From Bacteroidales bacterium (GTDB lineage Bacteria; Bacteroidota; Bacteroidia; Bacteroidales; JAGOPY01), in the NCBI GenBank assembly GCA_019429045.1, contig JAHYJL010000004.1, positions 1 to 44,848 of the forward strand: DNA of 44,848 nucleotides. Direction: 5' to 3'. Of this stretch, positions 37,739-41,200 are shown piece by piece (position 1 is the first letter of the stretch; each line of letters opens with the position of its first letter). The notes under the pieces are model-generated. The model worked only from the letters and a program-made list of their open reading frames with translations. It made no database searches and was not told the origin of the DNA. The position numbers were made by a program, and so were the translations under genes.

Positions 37739-40700
37739 ATGAAAATCAATAATCAAAACGGCCTCTTCATCGAGTTCTTTGAAAATAGAGCCATCAGAAG
37801 CATCAATGCCGGTCCCATCCGCATCAGCCTGAAAGAGTCCTCCCCCTTTTCCCGGCCAGGGGCCAATATCTTCTTGAGAAAAAGAAACGAATCCCATAAC
37901 TACACCCCGATTATGGGCCCTGGCAGCAACAGCCGTTTTTCACATGGTGATGATTTCTTTTTGGCTGAGGGAAACTGGCAGGGACTGGAATACCGCTGCC
38001 TGCTGAAGCTGTCGGCGAAGAGCCTGAGCTGGCAATGGAGCATTGATGTGAAAAATTTAACAGACGCCGATGTTGATCCCGACCTGATCTGGGTGCAGGA
38101 CGTTGGGCTGAAGCCGGTGAATGCCGGATTGATCAATGAGTATTATGTGGCCCAGTACCTGGAGCGGCGCATCCTTGAGGATCAGCGCCATGGCCCGGTG
38201 ATCTGCTGCCGGCAGAACATGCGGGAATCCACCGGCCATCCCTGGCTGATGATGGCCAGCCGCAACGGTGCCGCATCAGCTTCGACCGACGGCATGCAGT
38301 TTTATGGCAAGCGTTACCGCGCGACAGGCATCCCGGAAGGGCTTCTGGCCGACCGGCTGGGAGGCGAATATGCGGGCGAATCATCGGTGGTGGCGCTGCA
38401 GGAGAAGCCTTTTACGCTCCAGCCCGGAGAAAGCCGGCACGTTGGTCTCTTTGCGTTATTCCTGCCGGATCATCCGGAGGCGACATCGGACACAGACCTT
38501 GATATGCTGGCCGGTGCTATGTCAGAATTCCTGACAGGGACTCCATCCCTTTTAACAACTGAAGCCCCATCTCCTTTAAATCCCATCAGCACCTCTCCCT
38601 TCCTCCCTGTTGATGACCTGACTGACGATGAACTGAAACGGTTTTTTGGCCATGAGTGGCGGCAGGTGGAAACAGAAAATGACCGTATCCTGTCATTTTT
38701 CAGCAGTGAAAGTAATCATGTCGTCCTCCGGCAAAAAGAAATCCTGGCCGACCGGCCGCACGGACATATTATGCAGGCCGGCTCAGGCCTGGTGCCCGAA
38801 GAAAGCATCATGTCGACAACCGCTTTCATGTCCGGGGTGTTCAACTCGCATGTGACCCAGGGCAATACCAATTTCAATACGCTGCTTTCGGTCTGCACCA
38901 GCCAGTTCAACCAGTCGCCCGAAACCGGGCAACGTATCATTTTGTCAATTGACAACCGGCAATTCCTGCTCGGCGTCCCTTCCGCCTTTGAAATGGGACT
39001 GAATCATTGCCGGTGGATCTATAAGTCTGGCAGCCATCTTTTCCAGGTCCGCACCTGGACATCGGTAAAATCGCCGCAGGTAAATATGGATTTCAAGGTT
39101 ATCAAAGGCAAACCGGTGAACCTGCTCATCACCCATCATTTTGATCCCCTCAACGGTTGGGAGATATTGCCCGGAAAGTCAACCTTAGAGAATATCGCTG
39201 TTCCGGGACCGGACAGTATGATTTCTTCCCAGTTTCCGGAGGCACGGTTCAGGATCATTGTTCAGGATCAAAAGGTAAAAGAGGGTGTCTCAAAAGTCAA
39301 AAAGTCTCTTTTTTTTATTAGTCCGACGACTGAATTCCAGGCATTAAACCGACGGGTTAACCCGTCGGTTTGTAACATACTCGGAACCAACGGCTTTAGT
39401 CGTTGGAGCACGACCCAATTCCAGGCTGCAGTCCGATTGCATAGACTTTTGGGACACCCTCTCTGTATCCGGGTGAACCAGGCGAAAGACTTCTGTCTCA
39501 GCATAATCGGCGAAGTGGTCAGCGCCGTTGAACCGCTCAGGTTTGAAAATGCCGATGAGCAATGGCATGCCGATTGCCGGGAGGCCCGCGCCGCCTGGCA
39601 GGAACTGAGCCTGAACCTTGCCCTGCACAGCAGCCAGGATGACATCGCCGCCATCCGGGAGATCCTGCCATGGTACGGGATGAATGCGCTGATCCACTAC
39701 CTGACGCCATACGGCCTGGAGCAATTCGGCGGCGCTGCCTGGGGCACGCGCGACGTGTCGCAGGGACCGGTAGAACTGCTGCTGACGCTTGGAAAATACA
39801 AGGAAGCCCGCAGGGTGCTCTGCATCATCTTCTCTAACCAGAACCCCGACGGCGGATGGCCGCAGTGGTGGATGTTCGACAGCTACAGGGAGATCCGGGC
39901 GCATGAAGCCCATGGCGATATCTTCTACTGGTGCATCATGGCCCTTGCCAGTTATATCAAGGTCACGGGCGATATGGACATTCTCAGCGAAACACTTCCC
40001 TATTATCATGGGGAAGGCCCGGCCCACGCTGAAAAAACCCGGCTCAGCGAGCATGTCGAAAGGCTCATTGACATGATCACCGCCTCATTCATCCCGGGAA
40101 CTGCCCTGGTGCCCTTCGGCGGCGGCGACTGGAACGACTCCCTGCAGCCGGTAAGCCAGGAACTGGCCCGGCGGATGATCTCCGGCTGGACGGTGGAGAT
40201 GAACTACCAGGCGTTCAGGGAATATCAGCAGGTGCACGAGATGGCCGGCAACACATCGAAAGCGGCGGAATTAGAGGAAATCTGCAGCAGGATCAAGGCC
40301 GATTTCAACAAACACCTCGTCAGGGATGGGGTGGTGGCGGGTTACGGACTACTTGAACCGGACAACAGCATCAGCGTGATGCTGCACCCGGCAGATACGA
40401 AAACCGGCATTCATTACAGCATCCTCCCGATGAACCGGGGCATTATCAGCGGAATCTTCAGCAAAGAGCAGGCTGAAAACCACCAGGCGCTGATCGAACA
40501 GCACCTGAAAGGCCCTGACGGCGCGCGCCTGATGGACCGCCCCATCAGGTACAAAGGAGGCATACAGGAAATCTTTCAGCGGGCCGAAAGCAGCACTTTC
40601 TTCGGGCGGGAGATTGGCCTGATGTACGTACACGAGCACATCCGCTACGCGGAAGCCCTGGCCATCACTGGCAAGGCGGAAGCATTCGTCAGGGCGCTGC

Positions 40701-41200
40701 GCCAGGCAATACCGGTAGACTACAGAAATATTGTCCCATGCGGCGACATCCGCCAGGCAAATTGCTATTACAGCAGCTCCGACGTTCACTTTATAAACCG
40801 CTATGAAGCCGATGAGAAATACGATGAGGTGATCCGCGGGAATATGCCCCTGAAGGGCGGATGGCGTGTCTATTCCAGCGGCCCGGGCATCTTCATCAGC
40901 CTGGTTGTAACAAGGCTGCTGGGCCTGCACATCGAAAACGGTTTCGTTATCCTCGACCCGGTAATGCCCCGGTCATTCGATGGATTATCAGCCACATTGG
41001 ATTTCATGGGCCATCCCACCCGGTTAGTTTACACCATCAGGAATGGCAACTTCAGCCCTAAGGCCGTCACAATCAACGGACAACCCATTCAATTCACTTA
41101 TGAAGAAAACGAATACCGCATGGGCGGGGCAATGATCGCTATCGAAACTTTCAAAAAAATGACAACCCAAAAGGAAAATATCGTTGAAATTCTGCTTTGA
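37739..41200 (+). CDS. GH94-family phosphorylase, candidate 1,2-beta-oligoglucan phosphorylase
   Basis: Long N-terminal beta-sandwich region; MNALIHYLTPYGLEQFGGAAWGTRDVSQGPVELLL; VPFGGGDWNDSLQPV; GWRVYSSGPGIFISLVVTRLLGL; no signal peptide. Confidence 0.82.
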   Translation: MKINNQNGLFIEFFENRAIRSINAGPIRISLKESSPFSRPGANIFLRKRNESHNYTPIMGPGSNSRFSHGDDFFLAEGNWQGLEYRCLLKLSAKSLSWQWSIDVKNLTDADVDPDLIWVQDVGLKPVNAGLINEYYVAQYLERRILEDQRHGPVICCRQNMRESTGHPWLMMASRNGAASASTDGMQFYGKRYRATGIPEGLLADRLGGEYAGESSVVALQEKPFTLQPGESRHVGLFALFLPDHPEATSDTDLDMLAGAMSEFLTGTPSLLTTEAPSPLNPISTSPFLPVDDLTDDELKRFFGHEWRQVETENDRILSFFSSESNHVVLRQKEILADRPHGHIMQAGSGLVPEESIMSTTAFMSGVFNSHVTQGNTNFNTLLSVCTSQFNQSPETGQRIILSIDNRQFLLGVPSAFEMGLNHCRWIYKSGSHLFQVRTWTSVKSPQVNMDFKVIKGKPVNLLITHHFDPLNGWEILPGKSTLENIAVPGPDSMISSQFPEARFRIIVQDQKVKEGVSKVKKSLFFISPTTEFQALNRRVNPSVCNILGTNGFSRWSTTQFQAAVRLHRLLGHPLCIRVNQAKDFCLSIIGEVVSAVEPLRFENADEQWHADCREARAAWQELSLNLALHSSQDDIAAIREILPWYGMNALIHYLTPYGLEQFGGAAWGTRDVSQGPVELLLTLGKYKEARRVLCIIFSNQNPDGGWPQWWMFDSYREIRAHEAHGDIFYWCIMALASYIKVTGDMDILSETLPYYHGEGPAHAEKTRLSEHVERLIDMITASFIPGTALVPFGGGDWNDSLQPVSQELARRMISGWTVEMNYQAFREYQQVHEMAGNTSKAAELEEICSRIKADFNKHLVRDGVVAGYGLLEPDNSISVMLHPADTKTGIHYSILPMNRGIISGIFSKEQAENHQALIEQHLKGPDGARLMDRPIRYKGGIQEIFQRAESSTFFGREIGLMYVHEHIRYAEALAITGKAEAFVRALRQAIPVDYRNIVPCGDIRQANCYYSSSDVHFINRYEADEKYDEVIRGNMPLKGGWRVYSSGPGIFISLVVTRLLGLHIENGFVILDPVMPRSFDGLSATLDFMGHPTRLVYTIRNGNFSPKAVTINGQPIQFTYEENEYRMGGAMIAIETFKKMTTQKENIVEILL
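39280..39462. mobile_element. MITE-like palindromic element, 183 bp, inside the GH94 ORF
   Basis: TIRs agagggtgtctcaaaagtc / gacttttgggacaccctct (18/19 match); internal 26-bp perfect palindrome 39346-39371 and hairpin 39387-39406; no transposase. Confidence 0.8.

Follow-up and report, generated by a model that had tools for sequence, protein, structure and literature searches.

A palindromic element inside a phosphorylase gene

The 44,848-nt stretch of Bacteroidales DNA analysed here (the window) encodes at 37739-41200, on the forward strand, a 1153-aa SOGP-like phosphorylase of the GH94 superfamily, as recognised from its ORF and by Pfam, phmmer and Foldseek. Its domain series (SOGP_N, SOGP_2nd, Glyco_hydro_94 and SOGP_4th) and predicted fold assign the protein to the 1,2-beta-oligoglucan phosphorylases (SOGP); the closest solved structure is the 1,2-beta-oligoglucan phosphorylase 5h3z (phmmer E 9e-171), and comparison of the model with solved structures gave Foldseek TM scores of 0.83/0.86. 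The nearest homologues are mostly from Bacteroidales MAGs.

In frame within this gene lies a 183-bp class A miniature inverted-repeat element (MITE; 39280-39462, forward strand), equivalent to 61 codons and encoding peptide sequence such as SLFFISPTTEFQALNR. It is bounded by a 19-nt left terminal inverted repeat (TIR), AGAGGGTGTCTCAAAAGTC (39280-39298, forward strand), and a right TIR (39444-39462, reverse strand) that matches the left at 18 of 19 positions. Between the TIRs are a 26-bp perfect palindrome, AAACCGACGGGTTAACCCGTCGGTTT (39346-39371), and a second, REP-like hairpin, CCAACGGCTTTAGTCGTTGG (39387-39406), which was read from the sequence, forms in the minimum-energy fold and is also found in canonical copies of the element. 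The core of the palindrome, CCGACGGGTTAACCCGTCGG, is the 20-bp module whose place is taken by other MITE copies (L164, L174 and L192 compared with L017 and L020). An internal direct repeat, ACGACTGAATTCCAGGC, completes the structure (39326-39342, with an 88% partner at 39410-39426, both on the forward strand). As a single strand the element folds far better than its shuffles (z = -8.3, none of 200 as good), and Rfam returned no match in the window. The initial annotation, which had described these TIRs, the palindrome and the second hairpin and had the ORF reading straight through them, was accurate in each respect, as 37739-41200 is open throughout.

Alignment with GH94 homologues, which the initial annotation had proposed, found the insert in none of the 39 aligned proteins (50-64% identical), nor any homologous sequence at its position. 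From F504 to G591 the window protein has 87 residues against a modal 47 in the homologues, in which the span ranges from 39 to 48 aa and the loop is thus variable; with 61 residues foreign, about 21 native residues must therefore have been lost, for a net gain of about 40. The earlier proposal that the insert adds about 61 residues without a frameshift consequently holds for the foreign residues and the open frame but not for the net length. As judged from the alignment, the event is a replacement, in which about 21 codons (~63 nt) were swapped for 61 foreign ones.

The remainder of the phosphorylase shows no sign of decay at the sequence level. The ORF is intact over its 1153 codons, with no other stop or frameshift, and the protein differs at only two of the 202 columns that are identical in the other 39 homologues (200 kept), which is within the range of the homologues themselves. 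In the predicted structure (mean pLDDT 79, pTM 0.83), residues 512-533 and 536-572 fall below a pLDDT of 50 and lie between strands 503-508 and 575-582, and the insert is thus modelled as what is probably a disordered loop at a variable place.

Repeat family and probable parent transposon

The element is short, TIR-bounded, devoid of a transposase of its own and dispersed in multiple copies, and hence a MITE. BLAST with the element gave 107 matches in the genome, and the TIR motif occurs 82 times genome-wide as opposed to zero for a reversed control, so its occurrence is not a product of chance. Pairing of TIRs delimited about 30 copies, in addition to many fragments for which the census is non-exhaustive. 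Reading of the copies sorted them into four classes: class A, with a canonical length of 165 bp; class B, of 163-165 bp; class C, of about 155 bp and with CACAGAG inverted repeats; and class D, of 119 bp. The copy in the phosphorylase gene is an 18-bp-longer variant of canonical class A and is identical to no other, the next best matching at 94% over 151 bp. Diverged class A copies (77-80% identity) are present in the sister species (G001), and a search of 395 genomes of the order for the exact two-hairpin pattern recovered it in two, both members of this genus, and in none of the other 393. The BLASTN survey suggested in the initial annotation thus recovered copies both in the same genome and in a relative.

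Two internally deleted relics, one of 1172 bp on contig C45 and the other of 939 bp on C172, have the same TIRs as the MITE and hold broken pieces of an IS1182 transposase (NF033551, DUF772 and DDE_Tnp_1_6). Because these relics join the TIRs to IS1182-family transposase sequence, we infer that the element is an IS1182-derived MITE. The full-length parent envisaged earlier is accordingly indicated as IS1182-type, but no intact IS1182 element matched above the family cut-off in this genome (G000) or in the sister species, both of which are incomplete assemblies; an intact parent may be missing from the fragmented MAG. A derived MITE usually, but not necessarily, has its partner in the same genome. 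With these relics, the copies elsewhere and the insert-free homologues, the original description, of a MITE-like insertion that leaves a GH94 gene in frame, is supported.

IS1182-linked MITEs have been described in Methanosarcina acetivorans, with lengths of 160 and 169 bp and direct repeats of 4 or 0 bp (PMC3852290). The present elements resemble these ISMac2-related MITEs in being TIR-bounded, in their short or absent direct repeats, in their link to an IS1182 partner and in size (153-183 bp here), but differ in having TIRs of 18-19 nt rather than 25-26, in the REP-like palindromes inside them and in the translation of some copies within proteins (PMC3852290).

Near contig ends the element's palindrome is also repeated in tandem, with periods of ~60 bp and 150 bp, at L178:120-552 (C156) and L177:2713-3463 (C218); these arrays are probably amplified parts of the MITE that break the assembly. 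At L193:514-1924 (C204) an IS110-family element (NF033542) interrupts the hairpin of a canonical MITE; this 1.4-kb span was considered as a full-length parent and rejected, the ORF being an IS110-family transposase inside a MITE. The arrangement is reminiscent of Coxiella QMITE2, into whose REP IS1111 inserts.

Element sequence in other proteins

Nearly all TIR-bounded copies in both species are intergenic. A scan of 10 flanking gene pairs for genes broken out of frame by a copy found no family common to both sides, several of the 20 ORFs having no family at all. The in-frame cases, which came to light through a search for open frames and are therefore survivors of selection rather than a measure of insertion preference, are a small minority.

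The second internal case is a 161-bp class A copy (L321:2068-2228) in a Type III DNA methyltransferase (L321:1811-3895; G000:C18:18310-20394), where it follows the N-terminal region and precedes the methylase domain; nine homologues and EcoP15I Mod all lack it. This second case suggests that copies are occasionally converted into pieces of protein. A methyltransferase homologue of another family (L327; G108:C556) has, at the corresponding linker, a short REP-like peptide of another sequence, LPSPTGEGSGVRS, and the linker may thus be a hot spot for the insertion of palindromes.

Other cases are N-terminal, with signal peptides recognised by eye rather than with a predictor. More specifically, a full class A copy in the sister species occupies the signal-peptide n-region of a MORN-repeat protein encoded directly downstream of nadA (L278:520-2331, reverse strand; G001:C1), giving the N-terminus MKWFKVV-element-PGILLWIFIGFSISGYAQ. 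A MITE fragment forms the n-region of a trypsin-like secreted protein, with an ATG just before the fragment (L312:2-1585, reverse strand; C79), and another forms the 5' end of a TonB-dependent receptor (L318:1534-3972, reverse strand; C204), in which no ATG is left upstream of the signal peptide and the start codon is uncertain.

By description, the elements can be likened to QMITE1 and QMITE2 of Coxiella burnetii, which are REP-containing MITEs by which genes gain residues and into which an element of IS110/IS1111 type inserts (PMC5896051). In contrast to the present family, QMITE1 and QMITE2 have direct repeats, and their in-frame, mid-gene cases are reported in hypothetical proteins (PMC5896051).

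Mode of insertion and alternative readings

The initial annotation noted no clear target-site duplication, and the same is true family-wide: none of 30 copies has a duplication of at least 5 bp, and none was consistent at offsets of -2 to +4 and lengths of 2-10. Four nested copies (L164:2699-2851, L166:2658-2820, L174:2612-2763 and L192:2506-2658) exactly occupy the site of the 20-bp palindrome (CC...GG) of other family members; for example, GTTGGAA followed by CCGACGGCTTCAGTCGTCGG and ACTACTAA becomes GTTGGAA[GAGG...CCTC]ACTACTAA. IS1272 and TnSha1, of the IS1182 family, likewise produce no target-site duplication and delete a target hairpin of 21-85 bp (PMC5678879, PMC4923244), a range that includes the ~63 nt missing from the phosphorylase gene. 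By analogy, the absent duplication and the lost target DNA fit the stem-loop-replacing transposition of IS1272, with the nested copies replacing a whole 20-bp palindrome. Unlike IS1272 and TnSha1 (PMC5678879, PMC4923244), the mini-elements here have no transposase, and the gene target lost its ~63 nt with no demonstrable ancestral hairpin: the segment aligned to it in the 39 homologues contains none (mean z -0.02). Complementarity of the flanks across copies, considered as a sign that hairpins are targeted generally, was set aside as weak and window-dependent (p = 0.01 at 25 nt, 0.13 at 40 nt). Since the homologues have no hairpin at the phosphorylase site and flank complementarity is weak, we infer stem-loop replacement there rather than regard it as proven.

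We posit, with good confidence, that a non-autonomous MITE of the IS1182 family transposed into the phosphorylase gene, replacing loop codons while keeping the frame. An IS1182-type transposase acting in trans on the TIRs presumably moved the element, which would have inserted without target duplication in place of ~63 nt. These encode a surface loop that is variable in homologues and connects two beta-strands where the supersandwich domain ends. The gene stayed open because 183 bp and ~63 nt are each divisible by three and because the element is stop-free in this orientation. The product would carry a 61-residue, probably disordered loop instead of about 21 residues, with the fold probably kept, and may have retained its enzyme activity.

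An improbable alternative is that the family codes for protein in the manner of the palindromic elements of Rickettsia, being adapted to genes, with open frames under selection and in-frame insertion as its way of life. Rickettsia palindromic elements (RPE) are palindromic repeats of about 150 bp that are translated in frame in unrelated proteins (reviewed in PMC10969869), and in keeping with such a role canonical class A is 165 bp long (3n) and has two full-length stop-free frames, one per strand, while the family provides two internal in-frame copies, a full copy in the MORN protein of the sister species and the fragments at the N-termini of the trypsin-like protein and TonB receptor. At least two open frames arise, however, in 6-7% of shuffles (P about 0.06-0.07), so that openness as an adaptation was rejected as not significant; most frames of classes B and C are interrupted by stops, class C and most full-length copies in the sister species are not 3n, and the in-frame cases use different frames and both strands. 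RPEs, moreover, reside in genes at very high frequency (PMC10969869), as opposed to the few in-frame and nearly all intergenic copies here. The likeness to Rickettsia elements drawn in the initial annotation is therefore only partly apt, in that in-frame coding insertion recurs in a few proteins, but not with regard to the intergenic majority, the two opposite-strand frames and the clear IS1182 TIRs; the analogy is probably one of function rather than of descent. We conclude that coding sequence can tolerate the element, but the evidence does not establish any adaptation to such sites.

A less remote, though still unlikely, alternative is that a recent neutral or mildly harmful insertion is turning the gene into a pseudogene, its frame open by luck and its enzyme inactive. 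The restriction of the insert to one genome and a 61-residue loop with no predicted structure would be expected on this account, yet it sits poorly with the otherwise uninterrupted frame, the invariant columns kept and a location where homologues already vary. That misassembly placed a repeat inside the gene is more improbable than either. The genome is a 239-contig draft in which short repeats longer than a read can cause errors, but both flanks belong to one gene and are collinear with the homologues, the insert is not identical to any other copy, there is no reason to expect an open frame after a false join, and the methyltransferase supplies an independent in-frame case on another contig.

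Beyond transposition of a MITE into a loop, it is conceivable, though we hold this only tentatively, that IS1182 mini-elements in this genus act as swappers of protein segments, removing a loop and installing a disordered peptide of 55-61 residues in frame; the suggestion arises because IS1182-type elements replace their targets rather than merely insert. If true, this would be a recurrent source of new loops and signal-peptide n-regions in Bacteroidota, independent of yet parallel to the RPE. The findings also connect MITEs that code for protein with the stem-loop-replacing transposition of IS1182 elements, an unusual mode, which would explain why insertion can substitute for a loop and not simply lengthen it. 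Most known examples of mobile palindromes that code in frame come from Rickettsia. The present cases belong to a genus of Bacteroidota; their transposon origin is identifiable, insert-free homologues are available, and the two enzymes concerned are unrelated and well understood. The old question of whether selfish DNA can become working protein sequence is thereby made testable with purified phosphorylase.

Element sequence also reaches the ends of two further proteins. It encodes the last residues of an apparently shortened enoyl-CoA hydratase (L314:1762-2409; C95) and those of an RNase HII (L320:75-686; C148).
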